Part shown: positions 23,425 to 35,030 of the stretch, piece after piece
How positions within the stretch are numbered: position 1 is the first letter of the stretch
How the letters are laid out: each line of letters starts with the position of its first letter
NCBI GenBank assembly: GCA_017435965.1
Contig: JAFSEA010000050.1
Span: 1 to 41,039 of the forward strand
DNA length: 41,039 nucleotides
Origin: Oscillospiraceae bacterium
Lineage (GTDB): Bacteria; Bacillota; Clostridia; Oscillospirales; JAAYXM01
Direction of reading: 5' to 3'
Translations under genes and position numbers: made by a program
The notes under the pieces: generated by a model
The model's database searches: none
What the model was told of the DNA's origin: nothing
The model's input: only the letters and a program-made list of their open reading frames with translations

Positions 23425-26400
23425 ATGAGATTGAAAAAGATTGTCAGCACTATGCTTGTGATTTGTATGATTGCATCACTTGCTCCGAATATGGTGCTCG
23501 CTAACGAACCTGAAACGGGAAATGTCGATTCCATAGTCGTGGATTTCACAAAAACAACCCTTACAACAAATACAAGTGGCAACACATCTTATGACGGATT
23601 GACAACGCCGGGGTACGAAGTGATTACTGATAAGAGCACGACCAAAGGCGTGCGGGTAAACTTTGTCGGAAACGGACTTAATACTGTTCACGATCAGGGG
23701 TATAGTCCTCTGTCTTCAAAAAAGACGTGGCCGGCAGAAAAAGATAAGAATACCGTGAAAAATCTGATGCTCACAATAAACATTGAAGCAGAGACCGCAG
23801 GTTATTATGTTCCGGAACTTGTTTACGGCACTCATAACGCCTGCGGAGATTTTGCTATATACATAAACGGTCAGTATGCAGGAGAAATAACCGATGCATG
23901 GGATGCTTCCGTGAGCGCAAAAACGAATATGCCTCCTGTGACGCTCAATACAGTTTATCTGAAAGCAGGTAAAAATGAAATAAGCTTTAAGTGCTTATCG
24001 CACAGAGGAACAAGAGTGCAGTCCTATCTCATTCTTAACAAACTCACTTTTCTTTATTGCGGAGATTCGCTTTCTCCCATTGAGTATTCTCATAATCTCC
24101 CGAAGATAATGTATATAGGGCAGACCGCAAGTTTCGCGGTTTCTGCAAAAATGAGTGATGGCAGTACAAAGATTTTCGGTAAATACAATGAAGATGGTTC
24201 GGAAGTAACAAATCCGTTTATATCTGTATCGGAAACCTCGGAAATTGCAGAAATATCCGATGTCGTACAGGATAACGATGCCACAACCGGAATTTTTTCT
24301 GCTGTGAGTGAAGGAACAGCGAATATAAACGTAGTTGTGAATATTGGCGGAGAGTTGCTTGAAAGAACAATCAATGTCAGAATACGTGCAGAGCAACCTC
24401 TTGAATATGTCACGCTTGATTTCGATAAAGACAGCATTCCTGAATCTCGCACGGCTATCGCTTCAATCGGAGTCTTTGACGATGAAGATGGTGTGTTTAC
24501 ATCGGAGTATGATACTTTATTTGAAAGTCTTGACCCGGAAATTGCAACCGTAGCATCGGGAGAAAACAAAAACGAAGCTGTAATAACCGGTGTGTCGAAG
24601 GGCACGGCAAGGATCAAGGTAACCGCAACTGCAAAAGGTAAAACGGTTGGAGTAACGAAAGAAAAACTCATAACTGTTACAGATGCCCCGGTCATAAAAG
24701 AACTTGCTCTTACCACAAATAAAGAAACCTATAAAGTCGGCGATGAAGGAACATTTGAGCTTTCCGGAACAATGTCCGATGGAGTTTCTGCCACCGAAGA
24801 AGAACTTGCAAAAGTAAGTCTCACATATGAGAACGATAACGAAGGTGTTATAGCTCTCAATGCCGATGAAAAGAGATTTACGGCTCTTGCTCAGGGTGAT
24901 GCGGAAATTAGTGCTATCGCAGAAGTTGGAGGAAGAAGGATTTTTGCAAGACGCATTGTAAAAGTTGTTGCAGAAGGCGAACCGATAGTGGCAAATTTCG
25001 CAAAAACAGTTGTGGGAGACGGAAATGTGCTTACAGGTGCTACCACAGACGGTTTTAAGATAATAGAAGAGAAAAGTTCAACAAGAGGTGCGAGAGTTGC
25101 ACTTGAAGGTATGGGACTTCAGATAAACCATTGGATTTCTCCGGCATCTGCAGGTCGTACATGGCCGGCTTATAAAGATCAGAATCTGATGTTCACAATA
25201 AGCGTTGATTGCGAAAAAGCAGGATACTATTCTCCTGAACTCATTTATGAAGCATATAACAAAAGCGGTGCATTTACAATATATGTAAATGATCAATTTG
25301 CAGGCGAAGTGAATGCATATCTCGCAGGTCAGACAAAGGGAATTCAACGTACCGCAACGCTCAATACAATTTATCTTGATTACGGTACAAACGAAATAAG
25401 CTTCAGGCTGACGAAGTCATATCCACGAGAGGACAGCGGAAAATATGACGGTGTATGGTTTATTCTTGATAAGCTCACACTCTCACCTTGCGGAGAAACT
25501 CTTTTGCCGAAGATGTTTTCCCACAATCTTCCTGAGAGAATATGCAAAGGTCAGACGGTTGATTTTGCTGTTTCGACTGTAATGAGCGATGGTTCAACAA
25601 AGATTTTCGGTAAGTATAATGAAGACGGCACGGAAATCACCAACATACCCATAACTCTTTCCGTAACCTCTGAAATCGGGGAGATAACAAATTGGGTGCA
25701 GACCGCAACCGGCGTAACCGGTAGCTTTTACGTCGGTAACGCAGGAGATGCAGAAATCACCGCAACAGTAAACGTTGATGGAAATACATTTGAAGACACA
25801 TTGGAAATCAAAGTGCTTGATGCCGAGCTTCAGACAACACGCCCCGAGATTTCACATACGGTGTTCAAGGATGATATTATAGAACTTGAAACAGTCAACA
25901 CGCTCACAAACGGAGAAGCCTGGGATATCCCTACATCATATACCGTTTTTACATCGGGCAATCAGGAAATTGCGAAAATAGAAGGAAACACGCTTACTGC
26001 ATCAGATGTCGGTACTGTTACAATCACCGCAAAAACAACTCTTGCAGGAGTTACAAAAGAAGGTTCTGTTGATATAACAATCCTTGATGAGGATGTGAAA
26101 ACTCTTGATATCACGGCAGGTGGAAGTTTTCATATTCGCCTTACGGATATCGAAGGTGACACAGTTCCTATGTACGTTAAGGGAATAACCAATAAGGGTG
26201 CAGAGGTTGAGTTTGATAAACACAATGTGCAGATAACATATGAAGCACTCACACCTGAATTTGCAACGATAGATGATGAGGGAATCATAACACCTGTTGC
26301 ACCGGGAGAAGCGGGATTTCGAGTAACCGTTCTGCATCGCGGAAGGGAAATAACCTCAGAGGTAATACTTTCTGTTGCAAAAGGAAAGTCTCACTCCACC

Positions 26401-29400
26401 TATTACACCAAAGAGAAAAAAGCAAATGCACTTGAAAATATTTCAAAATATTCCTGGGCAAGGTCAACGGCAAGAGCGACTGTTGCTGCTGCCGATAACT
26501 ATGTGGCGAATCTCGATGTATTGTATAATCTAATTACTTCAAATGAGATTCCGCGTTCGTCAACAGCGGGCGAATATGGAGATCCGGAAATGTATTTTTG
26601 CCGTTATTGCGGATGTGATATCCAAAATAAATACGGAGCATATGCATGGGGAATTAATCCTATTGCCCGTCCTTGGAAGATTCAGTGTCCCGATTGTAAA
26701 CGTGTGTTCCCGTCAAATGATTTTGAAAGCTTTTATGAGCTTGGACTTAACGAATACGGAGAATTCTCACGTGAGCGCGCGCTCATTCAGCATCACAAGA
26801 AGTTTGTTTGCAAAAACGGAGAAAATTGTAGCTGTGATGCACCCGATATGAGCAAGCAAACAAATTCCGACGGCACATTAAATAAAGAATTTTATAATTT
26901 CTACGGATATGGAAAAGAAGGCGGATATCTCTATAATGAACTTTATAAGGATGCGGCAACTTCCAAAACCGTAAACGGTGGAAGGGGAATCATAGCTGAA
27001 AACGGTGAGGATGTAAGCTTCTGGGGTGTTGATGACAGCCTGGGTTACCTCACAGGCTATAGATACAAAGATTCTAACGGAAATATCAAAGCTTATGAGC
27101 GCCATGGATATATTGCTGTATACGCTCATTATGGACTCTTCCGAAAGGCAACAAACGGCGGTGGTGTAATCGCAGATGCAATTTCCACTTGCTTCCAGGC
27201 TTACCTTTATTCAGGAGAGAAAAAGTACGGAAGGGTTGCGGCGATACTTGTAGACAGAATTGCGGATTTCTATCCCGATTATGATCTCACCGTGTTCTAT
27301 AAGGACAGACGAATTTTTGTAAACTCCGATGGAGGTAACAAAAATGGTAAAATTCTCGGCAATATATGGGAAACAGATACGGCAAAGTATTTCTGTGAAG
27401 CTTATGATGCGGTGTATGAACTTTACGATGATCCTGAAGTTTTGAATTTCATCCATAACAAGGGTAAAGTTCTGAAGTTCCGTCACGCAAAGGAAACCCC
27501 GTCACAGATCAGGACGAGCATTGAAGACGGAATACTTCGCACCGCCTTCGAGGGTCTTTCGGATGGTTCTATTGCAGGTAACTTTGGTTACGACCAGAGA
27601 ACAAATGCAATGGCTGCGGTGGTTCTTGATTCACAGCCTGAAACCAAAGAATGGCTCGAATTTATGATGGCTCCCGGCTGGAAGAGAATGGCGGCAGGCT
27701 CAACGGGAGGAAGCATAACGGAAAATCTCTATGAAAAGATTGACTGGGACGGTCAGGGAGATGAAGCATCAAGCTATAATGCAAACTGGCTTGATTATTT
27801 GATTGATGCATCCCTTATTCTTGCGGATTATGAAAACAACGAAGGAATCAACCTCTTTGAAAATCCGAAGTTTGTCAAAATGTTCTACGGTATGCTCAAT
27901 GTCACAATGACTGACTATGGCGTGCAGTCGGGTGATAGTGGCTCTTTTGCACACAATGGTCTCTGGCTTTCCAAAAAGCAGGCAATGGCGGCGTACAGGT
28001 ATATCAAAGATGATGTATTTCTTCAGGCACTCTATCTTATAAACGGATATTCATCAGATAGTATTTATGAGAATATCTTCACAAAGAATCCCGAGCAGAT
28101 TAAAGAAGATATGGAGCGCGTAATAAAAGAAAAGGGAACACTCTCCCTTGAATCCGAGATGCTTTCCGGCTTTGGATTTACAGCCCTTCGTGATGGCAAG
28201 CGTTATTCAGAGGAAGATGACACACGCCACGGCTTCTGGATGTTCTACGGTCTTTCCGGTGCAGGTCACGGACATCGTGATTCCCTGAACATCGGTATGG
28301 ATGCATTTGGTCTTAATTTCCTTCCTGATTTTGGTTATCCAACAACAGCAGATAGCCAGCCTCGTGTTCTTCAATGGGAAACACGAACACTTTCACACAA
28401 TACCGTTATGGTAGATGAAAGAATGCAGGATGTAACCCAAAAGAGAGGTAAAAGCCTCCATTTCGATGCTACGGAAAACGTTCAGCTTATGGATGTTGAG
28501 GCTCCCGATGCGTACCGTGGCAGCGGTGTTTCGGAATATCGCCGTTCTGTTATTATGATAAAGATAGACGAAGATAATTTCTATGGTCTTGATTTGTTCA
28601 GAGTAAAGGGCGGCTGGAGTCACGAATTCAGTCTGCACGCTCAGTCCGATGAAATCGGCTTCACAAGCGGTGTTGATTTTGTGCCTCAGGTTGACGAGAA
28701 TGGCAACTACAAGGGCAATTATGCGGGCGTAGATTTAGACAGCGATCCGAATAGTGACAGCTTTGCAGGACCTGATCCGAATTCACCGATTCAGGGTAGC
28801 TATGAAACAGTATATCCACGCGGATACACCTGGCTTGAAAATGTTGACCGTGGAACGCCGACATCCGATAAAATAGAGCTTGATTTTAACATCAAGGACT
28901 TCAGAAAGGTGCTTGCAAATTCAAACGGACTTCATCTCCGTGCAACAATGCTCGGAATTGAGTCCGACAGTCAGGTTAATACTGCCACCGGTTACGTGCC
29001 GAACAAGCCGGACAATAAATCTATACCCGGAATCCGATTTGCATTTGTAAAGCGCAAGAGTGAAGATAAGAAAACTCAACTCGACACACTCTTTACAACT
29101 GTCTATGAGCCTTACCGGGACATGAGAACACTCTCTGATATATCAGAGCTTCCGATGACTGTGACTTCCGGAACGGAAAACACAGACGACATCACTCGTT
29201 GCGTAAAGGTTACTCACGCAGACGGAGAACGGGTGGACTACATCTTCTATGCAACCAATAACAAGGTCACCTATACGGTAACCGATGGCGAAGATGCATT
29301 TACCTTCCGGGGATTTGTCGGTGTGATAACGTGCAGAAACGGTGCTGATATTTATAAATATCTCTGTGACGGTGACATTCTTGATGAAGAGGTTTCCGGA

Positions 29401-30684
29401 GGGGATGCAATAAATGCACGTGTTACATATTTCACGGAATCTTTGGGATTTGAAAATGAAATTCATATAAAACCCCTTTATCCGGTGGATGAGAATGTAA
29501 TACCAACGCTTACGGGACGTTATGTGTATGTTGAAAACGGAAATGTCCGCAACGCAGCATACAAAATAGAAAGTGCAAAGGCAAATGGTGACGAAATTAT
29601 TTTGAATATCGGAGACGCAACTCTTATAACTGCACAGCTTGACCCATATGCAGAGGATGCAGTCGGCAATTACAAGTACAACATAGCAAAACGTGCAGAC
29701 TGTGTGATACCGCTTTCGTGGAGTGAAAATAACGCACCGTGGGTAGAAGAAGTTTCCGACCAGTCAGTATCGTCGGGAAGTATATTGAACTTTGCAATCA
29801 AGGGCGAAAGTCCGATTGAAAATATGGGCACAACGCTTTCTCTTCGTACCGCACCGCGTGGTGCAAGCCTGGATAGTGAAACAGGTGTGTTCACGTGGAA
29901 GCCTTCATCTTCTCAGGTTGGAACTCACGTAATTACCGTAGCTGTAACAGATGAGCAAGGAAGACAGTCTGTAGAAAGTTTTGAAATTGATGTTTACGGT
30001 TCAACAACGGGAGGCGGAACATCCGGCGGTGGCACAACAACTCCGACCATACCTGCAACCCCCTCGGATGAAAAGGACGACACTAACGATTCCACAACCG
30101 ATGTAGGGGAGGATATCATCCTCCCGCCTGCAGAGTCAAATATCCGCTTCATGGACCTCGGTGCACACGTCTGGGCAGTTGATGCAATAAATGCATTGGC
30201 TGACAAGGGAATAATCAAGGGAACAAGCAAAACAACCTTCTCTCCGGGAAACAATATAACGCGTGCAGACTTTGCAATTCTTCTTGTTCGTGCATTCGGT
30301 CTTTCAAGTGAAAACACAGAAAACTTTGCAGACGTTCTTCCTACCGATTACTTTGCTGACGAGCTTGCAATCGCACGAAATTCAGGCATAATTAACGGCA
30401 TCGGAGATAACAAGTTCTCACCACGAAACACAATCACCCGTCAGGATATGATGGTAATTGTTTATCGTTCCCTCAAATCTGTAGGGGCGATTCACGAATC
30501 GCCCGTAAACACGCCGGAATACCCGGATTATGCTGATGTTTCCGACTACGCAAAAGAAGCAGTCGCTGCCCTCATCGGAGCAGGAATCGTAAACGGAAAG
30601 AACGGCAAAATCGCTCCCGATGACAATGCAACCCGTGCAGAAGTTGCCGTACTTATTAAGCGTGTATTGGATTCAATAAAGTAA
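23425..30684 (+). CDS. Giant secreted SLH-anchored heparinase II/III-like protein
   Basis: A 2419-residue surface protein. Residues 1-26 are a signal peptide (cleavage after VLA). Two homologous beta-rich, probably carbohydrate-binding modules start near 37 and 520 (AGYYVPELVYG, FAIYINGQYAGEI, LNTVYLKAGKNEISFK). Bacterial Ig-like repeats follow each. From about 989 a helical region begins, with a probable zinc site C1059, C1062, C1088, C1091, leading to a heparinase II/III-type catalytic region with GAGHGHRDS (H1615, H1617) and SHNT (1657-1660). A putative Ig domain is at about 2102-2190, then a Gly/Thr/Pro linker and three SLH domains (about 2240-2295, 2299-2352, 2366-2419) for cell-wall attachment. 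It should depolymerise an acidic polysaccharide by beta-elimination; the glycan is unknown. Confidence 0.88.
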   Translation: MRLKKIVSTMLVICMIASLAPNMVLANEPETGNVDSIVVDFTKTTLTTNTSGNTSYDGLTTPGYEVITDKSTTKGVRVNFVGNGLNTVHDQGYSPLSSKKTWPAEKDKNTVKNLMLTINIEAETAGYYVPELVYGTHNACGDFAIYINGQYAGEITDAWDASVSAKTNMPPVTLNTVYLKAGKNEISFKCLSHRGTRVQSYLILNKLTFLYCGDSLSPIEYSHNLPKIMYIGQTASFAVSAKMSDGSTKIFGKYNEDGSEVTNPFISVSETSEIAEISDVVQDNDATTGIFSAVSEGTANINVVVNIGGELLERTINVRIRAEQPLEYVTLDFDKDSIPESRTAIASIGVFDDEDGVFTSEYDTLFESLDPEIATVASGENKNEAVITGVSKGTARIKVTATAKGKTVGVTKEKLITVTDAPVIKELALTTNKETYKVGDEGTFELSGTMSDGVSATEEELAKVSLTYENDNEGVIALNADEKRFTALAQGDAEISAIAEVGGRRIFARRIVKVVAEGEPIVANFAKTVVGDGNVLTGATTDGFKIIEEKSSTRGARVALEGMGLQINHWISPASAGRTWPAYKDQNLMFTISVDCEKAGYYSPELIYEAYNKSGAFTIYVNDQFAGEVNAYLAGQTKGIQRTATLNTIYLDYGTNEISFRLTKSYPREDSGKYDGVWFILDKLTLSPCGETLLPKMFSHNLPERICKGQTVDFAVSTVMSDGSTKIFGKYNEDGTEITNIPITLSVTSEIGEITNWVQTATGVTGSFYVGNAGDAEITATVNVDGNTFEDTLEIKVLDAELQTTRPEISHTVFKDDIIELETVNTLTNGEAWDIPTSYTVFTSGNQEIAKIEGNTLTASDVGTVTITAKTTLAGVTKEGSVDITILDEDVKTLDITAGGSFHIRLTDIEGDTVPMYVKGITNKGAEVEFDKHNVQITYEALTPEFATIDDEGIITPVAPGEAGFRVTVLHRGREITSEVILSVAKGKSHSTYYTKEKKANALENISKYSWARSTARATVAAADNYVANLDVLYNLITSNEIPRSSTAGEYGDPEMYFCRYCGCDIQNKYGAYAWGINPIARPWKIQCPDCKRVFPSNDFESFYELGLNEYGEFSRERALIQHHKKFVCKNGENCSCDAPDMSKQTNSDGTLNKEFYNFYGYGKEGGYLYNELYKDAATSKTVNGGRGIIAENGEDVSFWGVDDSLGYLTGYRYKDSNGNIKAYERHGYIAVYAHYGLFRKATNGGGVIADAISTCFQAYLYSGEKKYGRVAAILVDRIADFYPDYDLTVFYKDRRIFVNSDGGNKNGKILGNIWETDTAKYFCEAYDAVYELYDDPEVLNFIHNKGKVLKFRHAKETPSQIRTSIEDGILRTAFEGLSDGSIAGNFGYDQRTNAMAAVVLDSQPETKEWLEFMMAPGWKRMAAGSTGGSITENLYEKIDWDGQGDEASSYNANWLDYLIDASLILADYENNEGINLFENPKFVKMFYGMLNVTMTDYGVQSGDSGSFAHNGLWLSKKQAMAAYRYIKDDVFLQALYLINGYSSDSIYENIFTKNPEQIKEDMERVIKEKGTLSLESEMLSGFGFTALRDGKRYSEEDDTRHGFWMFYGLSGAGHGHRDSLNIGMDAFGLNFLPDFGYPTTADSQPRVLQWETRTLSHNTVMVDERMQDVTQKRGKSLHFDATENVQLMDVEAPDAYRGSGVSEYRRSVIMIKIDEDNFYGLDLFRVKGGWSHEFSLHAQSDEIGFTSGVDFVPQVDENGNYKGNYAGVDLDSDPNSDSFAGPDPNSPIQGSYETVYPRGYTWLENVDRGTPTSDKIELDFNIKDFRKVLANSNGLHLRATMLGIESDSQVNTATGYVPNKPDNKSIPGIRFAFVKRKSEDKKTQLDTLFTTVYEPYRDMRTLSDISELPMTVTSGTENTDDITRCVKVTHADGERVDYIFYATNNKVTYTVTDGEDAFTFRGFVGVITCRNGADIYKYLCDGDILDEEVSGGDAINARVTYFTESLGFENEIHIKPLYPVDENVIPTLTGRYVYVENGNVRNAAYKIESAKANGDEIILNIGDATLITAQLDPYAEDAVGNYKYNIAKRADCVIPLSWSENNAPWVEEVSDQSVSSGSILNFAIKGESPIENMGTTLSLRTAPRGASLDSETGVFTWKPSSSQVGTHVITVAVTDEQGRQSVESFEIDVYGSTTGGGTSGGGTTTPTIPATPSDEKDDTNDSTTDVGEDIILPPAESNIRFMDLGAHVWAVDAINALADKGIIKGTSKTTFSPGNNITRADFAILLVRAFGLSSENTENFADVLPTDYFADELAIARNSGIINGIGDNKFSPRNTITRQDMMVIVYRSLKSVGAIHESPVNTPEYPDYADVSDYAKEAVAALIGAGIVNGKNGKIAPDDNATRAEVAVLIKRVLDSIK
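30485..30504. repeat. Palindromic repeat inserted in frame between SLH2 and SLH3
   Basis: GGGCGATTC-AC-GAATCGCCC forms 9-bp perfect arms with a 2-nt centre and is preceded by GTAG. It encodes GAIHESPV, a stretch foreign to SLH domains. Short repeats of the type GTAGGGGCGATTC..GAATCGCCC are dispersed in many bacterial genomes; identity to such a family is from memory. Confidence 0.7.
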
Positions 30685-30728
30685 ATAACCTTTGTTAAGG
30701 TTGAAATTTCTAAAAGGAGGATATAAAA

Positions 30729-32282
30729 ATGAAGAAAAAACTCTTGGCGTTTTCTCTCGCAACACTTATGCTGCTTTCGCTTGCCGGTTGTGGTGGCGAA
30801 AAGGTAGAAAATCAAACTGCAGGCGAACCGGAAGAGGGAAAAGCACTCCCCGCCGATGCAGAGCTTAACGTGGTAACGGTAAGCCATTCAAGCTGGCCAT
30901 ATAACGAAAATTGGGAGGTGTGTAAAGAAATCCGTGAGGGTGTTGGCGGAAAGTTGACCGTAAATGCATATCCGGAATCAGACTTTTCCACAAAATTTTC
31001 TTTGCTTATGGCAGACACGGATAATCTTCCCGATGTTATAGCATTCCAGAATATTTCTCTTGCTACCAGATACTTTGAACAGGGAGCATTCCTTGCGTTT
31101 GATGACAATCTTGAGCATTTGCCCAACTACGAAAAGTTTTGGAATTCCGTTTCTCCGGAGGAAAAGGCAAATACATATGATATACGCCGTGCGGCAGACG
31201 GAAAGATATATGCCGCACCGCCCATTGGCAATGAGAGGCAATTAAATGTTATGGCATGGTTGTACCGAAAGGATATCTTTGATAAACATAACCTCAAAGT
31301 TCCGGAAACAACCGATGAACTTTTGAAAGTGTGTCGCAAACTGAAAAGCATTTATCCCGACAGCTATCCGTTGGGACTTCGAGCTCCTTTTTCACGCATA
31401 AACACGATAGGCTCTCAATGGAAACCATATTTCCATTATTCGGTATATTATGATTTCAACAACGGAACATGGGAGTATGGTGCCTGTGAAGATACGATGC
31501 TTGAAATAGTGACGTTCTTGAGAAAATGCTATGAATACGAGCTTGTTCCTCTTAACTATTTTACCATCAACACGTCAGAATGGGAAAATCTTATAGCGAA
31601 TGATCGCTCTTTCATAACCTGCGATTACCAGACAAGAATAGATACATTCAATTCAAAAGCGCGTGAACACAACCCTGCTTTCAATCTTACTGCAATGAAG
31701 CCACCCAAGGCGGACTCTGCGACAGGCGGAGCACTTCTTGCAAAAGAAAACTTCGATAATCAGGGGATGGCTGCTTGCAACACCGGAAAAAATGCATCGC
31801 AGATAAATGCATTCAGATACATTGACTGGTTCTATTCAGATGAGGGTAGCGCGGCAGTAAGCTGGGGAAAAGAAGGAGTTACTTACGAAGAAGTTGACGG
31901 AAAGAGAAGATTCATTGCAAATGACGGTGCAGAAGTAAGAACCCGTTACGGCTTCACAACAATCGGCACATATCTTCGCCTTGACCCTGCGGCTGGTGAC
32001 GCATTGGTATCGGAAGAGCAGGCATCGACAACCGATATGCTTCTTGCATCCCAAACAGAGCATCTCAATCCTGTCCGATGGTTAAAGCCAAGTGAAGAGC
32101 AAGCAGCAAAAATCACGGAATTAAGCGGATACATACTTCCTTATGTTGAAGAAAACCTGAGCAAGTTCTTAAATGGAACAAAGCCATTATCGGAGTGGGA
32201 TGAATTCAGGGAAGGACTCAATGAACTTCCGATAGATGAACTTCTTGCAGTATATGACGATATGTATCAGCAATACTCATAA
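30729..32282 (+). CDS. ABC-transporter extracellular solute-binding lipoprotein
   Basis: A 517-residue family-1-type solute-binding protein. The N-terminus is a lipoprotein signal with lipobox LAGC (Cys21). DTDNLPDVIAFQNI, AAPPIGNERQLNVMAWLYRK and the RYIDWFYSDEGSAAVSWGKE region near the C-terminus match the carbohydrate-binding SBP group (LplA/YtcQ type) common in Clostridia and Paenibacilli. An AAAGGAGG site precedes the start. It sits between the lyase and the 902-residue secreted protein, so it probably captures the lyase products. No permease or ATPase gene is present in the window. Confidence 0.9.
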   Translation: MKKKLLAFSLATLMLLSLAGCGGEKVENQTAGEPEEGKALPADAELNVVTVSHSSWPYNENWEVCKEIREGVGGKLTVNAYPESDFSTKFSLLMADTDNLPDVIAFQNISLATRYFEQGAFLAFDDNLEHLPNYEKFWNSVSPEEKANTYDIRRAADGKIYAAPPIGNERQLNVMAWLYRKDIFDKHNLKVPETTDELLKVCRKLKSIYPDSYPLGLRAPFSRINTIGSQWKPYFHYSVYYDFNNGTWEYGACEDTMLEIVTFLRKCYEYELVPLNYFTINTSEWENLIANDRSFITCDYQTRIDTFNSKAREHNPAFNLTAMKPPKADSATGGALLAKENFDNQGMAACNTGKNASQINAFRYIDWFYSDEGSAAVSWGKEGVTYEEVDGKRRFIANDGAEVRTRYGFTTIGTYLRLDPAAGDALVSEEQASTTDMLLASQTEHLNPVRWLKPSEEQAAKITELSGYILPYVEENLSKFLNGTKPLSEWDEFREGLNELPIDELLAVYDDMYQQYS

Positions 32283-32321
32283 GGATATTTCGTCAGAACA
32301 AAAAATCAGGAGGAATACAAA

Positions 32322-35030
32322 ATGAAAAAACTAATAAGCGTTTTCCTTATCGTCTGTTTGGTGGCAACACTTCTGCCGTCAATTGCTTTTGCAACTGAAG
32401 CTGATATAGTAAGTGAAATAGTAATAGATTTCACACAAACAACACTCACTACCAACACAAGTGGAAATACGTCTTACGAAGGATTAACAACACCCGGTTA
32501 TGAGATAAATCCTGATAAGAGCACAACAAGGGGAGTTCGTGTGAACTTTATCGGCAACGGGCTTAACACTTGTCACGATCAGGGATATTCCCCTTTGTCC
32601 TCAAAGAAAACCTGGCCGGGAGAAAAGGATAAAGACACAGTGAAGAACCTGATGCTTACAATAAGTGTTGATGTTGAAGCTTCCGGCTATTATGCTCCCG
32701 AAATTATATATGGTACACACAATGCCTGCGGAGATTTTGTAATATACATAAATGGACAGTATGCAGGTGAAATAACCGATGCATGGAATGCTGATGTGAG
32801 TGCAAAAACAAATATGCCACCCGTGAAGCTCAATACCGTTTATCTCAAAGAAGGCAAAAACGAAGTTAGTTTCAAGTGTGTATTACATCGTGGAACGAGA
32901 ACACAATCTTACCTTCTTCTCAATAAACTCGCATTCACTCCTTGCAAAGAAGCATTTGTCCCGGTTACTTTTGTTTATGATTTCCCGGAAAAAGTAGTTG
33001 CAGGTGAGCCTGCAGAGTTTACTGTTTCAGCAAATTTCGATGAAAGTCAGACAAAGTTTTCCGGCACATATAACGAAGATGGCTCAACTATGGATAAGAA
33101 TCTTACCGTAGCATCGGAAAACGGCACTTTTGAGATAACAGAGCAGAGTGAAAATGCTCTGAAAGGAACATTCACCGCTACTTCCGGCGGTGCAGTAGCA
33201 ATAACAGCTACGGCAAATATCAACGGGAAAACATATTCTGAAACAATTGAAGCCACAGCTACTGCTCCCATAGTAGCAACCTTTTCAAAAACAGCAGGGA
33301 AGTCAGGAAACTACACTTTTGCAGACCTTGCAACAAATGGCTATACAGTAGATACGTCCAAAAGTTGTGAAACGGCAAAAGTTCAAAATAACGGAGATTA
33401 CATACAGGTAGAGATGTATTGTATCGGAAGCTCCGGAACTCCTTGGCCGACAACGGCTGCGGGAGCATATGGTTTGCTGTTTACAATAAATGTAACGGCA
33501 CCGACTGCAGGATATTACAGCACAAATTTTGAATATGGTGCGTGGAACTCAAGTGCAGACTTTACAATGTACATAAATGGTGTTGCAGCAGGCGTTGTTG
33601 ACGGATACATATGGGGCAATAATGCAACAGCAGACCGTGAAAAAGCATTTAACACAGTTTACCTCAATGAGGGAACAAACGAAGTAAGCTTCAGATTGAC
33701 AAAAACATATAAGCGAACAGAAGCAGACGGAACAGATGCTTTGAGATACAACGGATATTGGTTCCGTCCGAGAAAGCTCACTTTCACCCCTGTTGATGTA
33801 GCTCCCGCTCCTGTCGGATTCACATCCACACTTACAGAGACAAAAGTAGGTGAGTCGGTTGAGTTTACAGTAAAGCCTGTTATGAGCGATGGTTCGGCTA
33901 TGTATTTCGGCATATATGATGATGCAGGTACAAAAATTACCGACAATCCGATAACCCTTACCACAACATCGGGAACAATAACAAATCTCATAAGAACAAC
34001 CGATGGCGTAAACGGCACATTTACCGCAACGGAAGCAGGAAATGCGACAATAAGTGCATCAACAACCATCAACGGAACTTCATTCACAGATAGTTTTGAT
34101 GTAACCGTAACATCTGACGAAGATGAGGTTGTAACTCTTCCGACAACAATCACAATGTCTGTATCCACAGATTCCGCTTTTGCAGGAAATCTCACGGTAA
34201 ACGGAGAAGTTCAGGAAAGTGCAATAAGAACATATAGCGTCGGTACAGGCGATACCGTGATTGTAAAGGCAGAGGACATTGAAGGCAAAATCTTCCGTGG
34301 ATGGCTTCGCGGCGGTGAAAACGGTAAGGTAGTATGCCTTGATTCGGAGTATACCTTCACGGCGGCAACAAATGTTGCACTCTTTGCAAAGTATACAGAT
34401 GCTCCCGAAGAAGAGACTGTTTCAAACGAATATTACGACTGGAACGGCGAATTCCTCGCGTATACAGAGCCTGACCGTGCTACTCTTTCAAAATACGGCT
34501 TCAGCTTTAAGGAGTGGCTTGAATCAGCAGGTGGAATTATCACAAGATACGTAGCTGATTATACGGCTGCAAACACTTATACGATAACAAAGCCCGATAG
34601 CACAAAGCTTCAGAACGTTGCTCACGAGACCGAAATAACTTTGACGAACCCGACAGCAGTTTCGTGGTATGTAAATGATGTGCTTGCCGCTTATGGCACA
34701 AGCTACAGCTTCTATGCAACGGAGGATGCCATTGTAACGATTGACAACGAAGTGCAGACGGGGCCGATAGTAAAGCTTAATAATCCCAATGGCAATACAT
34801 ATATTCTTGAATACAACGTAAACGGTGCAGATGTAATTGAGAAGGGTATTATTATCGGAAACGGCGAGCCTACAGTCACAAGTTGCTTCTATAAGGTTAT
34901 TTCACAAAGAAGTGATGCTTTCGGCAAGCTTATGGCAAACAACGACACATCATATACAACCGTTCGCGGTTATGTGATTTATAATGACAACGGCACTTAC
35001 AGAGTGGTATATGCCGATATAGCTGAATAA
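32322..35030 (+). CDS. Secreted multi-module protein sharing the lyase's N-terminal modules
   Basis: A 902-residue protein with a signal peptide (cleavage after AFA, residue 24). Its first module (about 28-205) matches the first module of the giant lyase at roughly four of five residues by hand alignment. A second related module begins near 316. Ig-like repeats, a TIVKAEDIEGKIFRGWLRGG-type segment and a C-terminal domain of about 200 residues (YDWNGEFLAYTEPD to VVYADIAE) follow. There is no catalytic motif I recognise, and no SLH, LPXTG or transmembrane anchor. It is likely a released or non-covalently held glycan-binding partner of the lyase. AGGAGG precedes the start; a terminator follows. 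Confidence 0.83.
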   Translation: MKKLISVFLIVCLVATLLPSIAFATEADIVSEIVIDFTQTTLTTNTSGNTSYEGLTTPGYEINPDKSTTRGVRVNFIGNGLNTCHDQGYSPLSSKKTWPGEKDKDTVKNLMLTISVDVEASGYYAPEIIYGTHNACGDFVIYINGQYAGEITDAWNADVSAKTNMPPVKLNTVYLKEGKNEVSFKCVLHRGTRTQSYLLLNKLAFTPCKEAFVPVTFVYDFPEKVVAGEPAEFTVSANFDESQTKFSGTYNEDGSTMDKNLTVASENGTFEITEQSENALKGTFTATSGGAVAITATANINGKTYSETIEATATAPIVATFSKTAGKSGNYTFADLATNGYTVDTSKSCETAKVQNNGDYIQVEMYCIGSSGTPWPTTAAGAYGLLFTINVTAPTAGYYSTNFEYGAWNSSADFTMYINGVAAGVVDGYIWGNNATADREKAFNTVYLNEGTNEVSFRLTKTYKRTEADGTDALRYNGYWFRPRKLTFTPVDVAPAPVGFTSTLTETKVGESVEFTVKPVMSDGSAMYFGIYDDAGTKITDNPITLTTTSGTITNLIRTTDGVNGTFTATEAGNATISASTTINGTSFTDSFDVTVTSDEDEVVTLPTTITMSVSTDSAFAGNLTVNGEVQESAIRTYSVGTGDTVIVKAEDIEGKIFRGWLRGGENGKVVCLDSEYTFTAATNVALFAKYTDAPEEETVSNEYYDWNGEFLAYTEPDRATLSKYGFSFKEWLESAGGIITRYVADYTAANTYTITKPDSTKLQNVAHETEITLTNPTAVSWYVNDVLAAYGTSYSFYATEDAIVTIDNEVQTGPIVKLNNPNGNTYILEYNVNGADVIEKGIIIGNGEPTVTSCFYKVISQRSDAFGKLMANNDTSYTTVRGYVIYNDNGTYRVVYADIAE

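Follow-up and report, generated by a model that had tools for sequence, protein, structure and literature searches.

A giant, SLH-anchored lyase of predicted heparinase II/III type and a smaller neighbouring protein, encoded together in an Oscillospiraceae bacterium of a ruminant-gut lineage, share a first module that is closely matched at the protein level. We propose that the two proteins make up a surface unit that captures and cleaves a single glycan by way of a module copied between neighbouring genes, and we put the probability of this reading at slightly better than even (about 0.52). In this model, the lyase would be fixed to the cell wall by its SLH domains, lyase and partner would each bind the same, perhaps acidic, polysaccharide through module 1, and the partner would gather or present that polysaccharide. 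Whenever the module of one gene changed, copying between the neighbouring genes would bring the other back into register, and selection would keep the matching copies.

The window, by which we mean the whole 41,039-nt stretch of contig JAFSEA010000050.1 (assembly GCA_017435965.1) that was analysed, encodes the two proteins on the + strand, as do all coordinates given here, in the same open reading frames as in the first-pass annotation. The lyase (2419 residues; 23425..30684) opens with a signal peptide, followed by module 1 (residues 36-211; 23530..24057), an Ig-like region, module 2 (residues 520-690; 24982..25494), assigned to the same family as module 1 with a profile built in this analysis, a second Ig-like region, a heparinase II/III-type catalytic region (residues 987-2088; 26383..29688), a He_PIG domain (E 9.1e-11), and three SLH domains (residues 2241-2419; 30145..30681). 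Both Pfam and profile searches recover the catalytic region (PF07940, E 1.4e-11) and the predicted cell-wall anchor (SLH, E 1.3e-31 in three stretches); Hepar_II_III_C at residues 1609-1740 scores 44.8 bits, above its curated cut-off of 24. With SLH domains at one terminus, the lyase has the layout of an SLH-anchored surface protein, and it is of heparinase II/III type by domain, with lyase activity predicted. Two CxxC pairs in the catalytic region (residues 73, 76, 102 and 105), whose cysteines are invariant across nine aligned lyases, look like a zinc knuckle. Between the lyase and its partner lies a solute-binding protein (30729..32282; PF13416, E 2.3e-12). The partner (902 residues; 32322..35030) consists of a signal peptide, module 1 (residues 32-207; 32415..32942), an Ig-like region, module 2 (residues 316-492; 33267..33797; 40% identical to lyase module 2 and 38% to lyase module 1), a second Ig-like region, and a C-terminal region (CT; 34209..35027) made up of InlB-type B repeats and a terminal domain that has no name; CT is common to partners of the lineage. 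Neither the Pfam scan nor a profile screen found SLH in the partner, in agreement with the first-pass annotation, which had described an unanchored partner beside an SLH-anchored lyase. Genes close by encode an endonuclease/phosphatase-family protein, an oxidoreductase, a histidine phosphatase, a GH3 protein and an esterase-like hydrolase.

The two copies of module 1 are identical at 142 of 176 aligned residues (81%; BLASTP E 2e-114, far from chance), and a 174-codon alignment gives 81.6% amino-acid and 76.2% nucleotide identity, with pS 0.707 and pN 0.100. Their synonymous sites are almost randomised and near saturation: the same codon is used at 68 of 138 identical residues (Met and Trp excluded), versus 55 expected from codon usage alone. 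This codon identity, with pS at 0.70, rules out recent gene conversion of the whole module in the window. The likeness is bounded by the module, with only 34% identity in the signal-peptide region, 36% in the following Ig region, and 41% in the second-module region. Bootstrap estimates of omega between lyase and partner, in which dS is close to saturation throughout and was capped at 3, are 0.057 (0.029-0.116) for module 1, 0.49 for the Ig region and 0.40 for module 2; module 1 is thus constrained about as strongly as the catalytic domain is when the two species are compared (omega 0.077). Low omega combined with saturated synonymous sites shows that selection acts on the protein sequence of both copies of module 1. 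On each of these points the first-pass annotation holds up: it had claimed agreement at about four of five residues, DNA differing at many synonymous sites, much more diverged second modules, and selection on the protein sequence of module 1, and the codon-based dN/dS comparison finds the two modules far from equally conserved. The module 1 subtype has no further strong match in its own genome beyond this pair; the lyase's own module 2 comes next at 46-47% (48% between the two lyase modules).

One sub-tract, at lyase codons 145-184, carries an excess of identical codons (23 of 34, versus 13.9 expected) that is confined to it and may mark a short conversion event of later date. Because synonymous sites are saturated, the age of the module 1 split is poorly known, yet the pair looks like an old copy that purifying selection would have kept as the flanking sequence drifted. 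Constraint focused on the binding loops was looked for but not seen, with 77 of 91 loop positions and 66 of 84 strand positions conserved (Fisher p 0.33).

Comparison with the congener SIG480 (G003) recasts this conservation as matching. SIG480 keeps the gene order of the window from 19737 as far as the oxidoreductase, its locus being divided between two contigs with the break in the solute-binding gene. Window and SIG480 sequences are 77% identical in the catalytic domain, 67% in CT, 57% in lyase module 2, and 44% in module 1 of either gene; within SIG480, the lyase and partner copies of module 1 are 61% alike, and in a tree of eight modules the module 1 copies cluster by genome (support 100 and 93). 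A module 1 that stays constant between species is ruled out, since the syntenic copies share 44% versus 77% for the catalytic domain. The 'unusually strong conservation' claimed in the first-pass annotation therefore applies to the lyase and partner of one genome and fails between species. As judged from these sequences, module 1 is matched inside each genome and not preserved between genomes, and the simplest account would be a replacement of module 1 in both genes, in one lineage or more, that left the copies matched. By codon identity, the window pair (68/138, 0.49) seems about as far apart as the two species (442/812 in the catalytic domain, 0.54), a comparison that is weak given saturation. 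Three further orthologous sets (catalytic domains 72-80% identical, partners with full N-termini) give a mixed picture: including the window, the own lyase is closer than the orthologous partner for five of eight partners by best-match identity and for four of eight by bit score.

In stretches taken from SIG480, other named MAGs and the genome of the window itself, we count 114 different lyases and 75 different partners. These form 69 neighbouring pairs, and the partner comes first in 61; six of the 75 partners have no lyase within 3 kb on their stretch, and three of the 69 pairs have too short an N-terminus. The own lyase is the best match in its genome for 47 of the 66 testable partners, versus at most 14 in 10000 shuffles, and ranks first of all 110 lyases for 39 of the 66; an earlier test on fewer loci placed the own lyase first for 16 of 26 partners (at most 6 in 20000 shuffles). 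In a module tree restricted to modules that score at least 35 bits and cover about 120 residues or more, the closest neighbour of 19 of 43 partner modules belongs to the cognate lyase, versus 0.62 expected. The comparison covers stretches and not whole genomes, and many loci end at contig ends, inside genes; the genomes are draft assemblies, mostly titled MAGs, in which chimeric contigs are possible at single loci but hardly across dozens. Two partners best match a lyase at another locus (L069 with the L074 lyase, 59% over 632 residues; L063 with the L068 lyase, 42% over about 520 residues), and these are possibly displaced pairs.

The tendency of neighbouring lyases and partners to carry like modules thus recurs over dozens of pairs in related bacteria. 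Which modules are matched varies by locus: partner module 1 or 2 may correspond to lyase module 1, 2 or 3, and partner module 3 to lyase module 1. Catalytic-domain matches number 62 in the own genome (G000), 65 in G003, 61 in G004, 25 in G001, 21 in G005, 12 in G007, and one each in G002 and G006; five other genomes of the order have no catalytic match. In the own genome, 51 listed lyase ORFs sum to about 0.40 of 2.65 Mb, so that roughly 15% of the genome may consist of giant lyase genes. A broader idea, which we regard as doubtful, is that of a genus-wide pairing code. Each of the many giant surface lyases would be matched to its companion by a module whose sequence changes from species to species, with the match restored inside every genome. 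The members of a pair would then recognise a common ligand, or one another, in the presence of dozens of other pairs carried by the same genome.

Several of these results argue for a unit that captures and cleaves one glycan. Module 1 has an omega of 0.057 versus 0.40-0.49 in adjoining segments of the same genes; the SIG480 and window copies pair within their genomes; and neighbours are matched in the rank test (47 of 66) and the tree (19 of 43). The two proteins also divide their labour: CT is absent from all 122 catalytic ORFs and SLH from all 80 CT ORFs (counts that include duplicates from overlapping stretches), while SLH is present in 81 of the 84 lyases whose 3' end is closed (duplicates included). 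Against it stand the 19 of 66 partners that fail the rank test, the modules within lyases that are about as alike as those of lyase and partner, the loops that are not significantly more conserved than the strands, and the absence of a Pfam match for the window's module 1.

The main rival to this reading is that recombination between neighbouring genes suffices, with duplication or gene conversion copying modules between adjacent genes and matching arising as a by-product without selection. Local copying of this kind, which the first-pass annotation left out, does account for part of the pattern. A codon scan covered the 53 pairs in which a stretch could be aligned. Apart from the window, nine of them reach 76% identity or more across 150 codons, with pS 0.25-0.53 and codon-excess z 5.9-10.4, and look recently copied, which makes copying recurrent; L067, L107 and L149 are among the pairs with the lowered synonymous divergence of recent gene conversion, and L071 is intermediate (90 codons only, 84% identity, pS 0.59, z 3.9). 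In the same scan the window pair shows 83% identity and pS 0.68. Modules have also been copied inside lyases, and the 40-codon window tract with its excess of identical codons fits the same process. A within-gene control by chunk alignments gives this rival further weight: the likeness between partner and lyase exceeds that within the lyase in 33 of 64 cases (Wilcoxon p 0.18), and since modules within a lyase are about as alike as those of lyase and partner, much of the matching could come from proximity alone. It is only at the high-identity end that matching across genes is favoured (identity of at least 0.7 in 11 cases across genes, 2 within lyases and 1 within partners), and the control counts against a wholly adaptive reading. 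Recombination alone nevertheless sits poorly with that same excess of high-identity copies across genes over those within lyases, and with the window itself, where the tract is synonymously as diverged as orthologues yet retains 81% protein identity and an omega of 0.057. Synonymous divergence at the between-species level alongside such protein identity suggests that the copy has since been held by protein-level selection, and we consider recombination without selection somewhat unlikely as the whole explanation. In the L164 partner, two internal modules are 93% alike, a likely recent internal duplication.

The predicted fold of module 1 gives the shared module a possible function. A model built from 40 aligned modules (pLDDT 86.8, pTM 0.85; 40 of 42 modules entered the fold alignment, as did 44 of 46 CT regions for the model discussed below, two of each being left out) is a beta-sandwich of the CBM6/35/36/84 type, with the fold shared over most of the module. 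It aligns best with the C-terminal module (763-904) of a Paenibacillus xanthan lyase (6f2p; Z 13.7, rmsd 2.9, 135 residues aligned) and with MiXBM (7ehg; Z 13.3 over 127 residues), and at Z about 9-10.5 with CBM6, 35, 36 and 29 structures. MiXBM, which we take to be a xanthan-binding member of CBM84, shares with the window module the predicted fold only. Like CBM6/35/36 and the xanthan-binding modules in predicted fold, module 1 has a weak family-level sequence relation to them: identity to the two best-matching structures is 13% and 17%, and the window copy has no Pfam CBM match, while the module profile matches CBM35-type parts of glucanotransferases (E 2e-7). Because the window's module 1 matches no Pfam family at E 0.1, including CBM35 (PF16990), and only 11 of 40 scanned modules match CBM_35, weakly (best 4.8e-5), we call it CBM-like and do not file it as CBM35. 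Only the likeness in fold suggests a glycan ligand for module 1. Two xanthanase modules are described as having improved xanthan binding (PMC10049358). A predicted fold of glycan-binding type, closest to 6f2p and 7ehg, would suit one glycan common to module 1 of lyase and partner, the first of two roles put forward in the first-pass annotation, and is consistent with capture and cleavage.

Module 1 might instead bind itself, the second of those roles, with the partner's copy recognising that of the lyase and thereby tethering the unanchored partner, so that co-resident pairs would follow a code of self-recognition. The partner's want of an SLH anchor would fit such a role, matching within genomes together with divergence between them is what co-evolving interfaces would be expected to show, and a genome with as many lyases as this one, with its 62 catalytic matches, would need specific pairing. 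The 19 of 66 partners that do not rank their own lyase first make general use of such a code less likely, however, and the numbers of the matched modules differ between loci; the predicted fold, moreover, is that of a glycan-binding module. We therefore consider homotypic binding improbable.

The working contact could also lie in CT and not in module 1: CT would dock all partners to a common surface component, the likeness of module 1 then reporting only common origin. In all 34 aligned rows CT stops no more than 8 residues short of the C-terminus, and regions like it are found on further large repeat proteins of the order, both as docking would have it, but this account leaves the omega of 0.057 in module 1 across both genes unexplained, and we hold it to be very improbable. 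The InlB B-repeat family Flg_new_2 is found in 18 of 20 CT regions (24.4 bits in the window partner, above the cut-off of 23.6) and Flg_new in 14 of 20. The CT model (pLDDT 90.5) has no Foldseek match at E 0.001; its terminal ~90 residues are unnamed, their best structural likeness (Z 7.9, to Ig/FN3-like folds) is not decisive, and we make no claim of a new fold. A likeness to WD-40 propellers, returned with low E-values by a PDB profile search, is treated as an artefact, as no stretch (about 22 residues) passes alone. Mantel tests of catalytic domain versus CT gave rho -0.01 (69 pairs) and 0.015 (64 pairs), and the same-protein control of catalytic domain versus SLH was no higher at -0.04 (53 pairs), so these values speak neither for nor against co-inheritance of catalytic domain and CT. 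Outside the family, CT-like regions lie on large repeat proteins at L188 (G015), L189 (G144), L190 (G078), L193 (G243) and L194 (G261), none with an M module or catalytic domain alongside; at L190, an SLH protein adjoins the CT-like protein.

Arrangements in which a separate non-catalytic glycan binder or a common scaffold stands beside enzymes are familiar from SusE/SusF-like surface glycan-binding proteins and from cellulosomes. The window system differs from both in that its modules are matched to one neighbouring enzyme, and a Pfam scan of the eight window proteins found no cohesin or dockerin. The lyase shares Hepar_II_III_C with heparinase II/III-type polysaccharide lyases (PF07940) such as the alginate lyase AlgL17 (9irq, its only PDB sequence match, E 5.4e-5), but departs from them in its length of about 2400 residues, its several N-terminal modules, its Ig domains and its SLH anchors. 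SLH-anchored multimodular glycanases are known in Firmicutes, for example ChiW (PMC5132251) and Cel5I (PMC4976890), and the window lyase resembles these as a predicted cell-surface enzyme with SLH and glycan-binding-type modules; it is unlike them in having a non-SLH neighbour with modules similar to its own, a feature that the opening lines of the abstracts on those enzymes do not mention. The literature searched, judged mainly by titles, held no description of a lyase/partner system of this kind.

If many loci of a genome set beside the enzyme a non-SLH neighbour with glycan modules similar to the enzyme's own, they would be the Gram-positive equivalent of units that combine an enzyme with a surface binder. 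The matched modules are not the same at every locus, so they could provide an internal key to the glycan attacked by each lyase. The matched modules also represent natural copies of many ages, in which to study how binding specificities move between genes.
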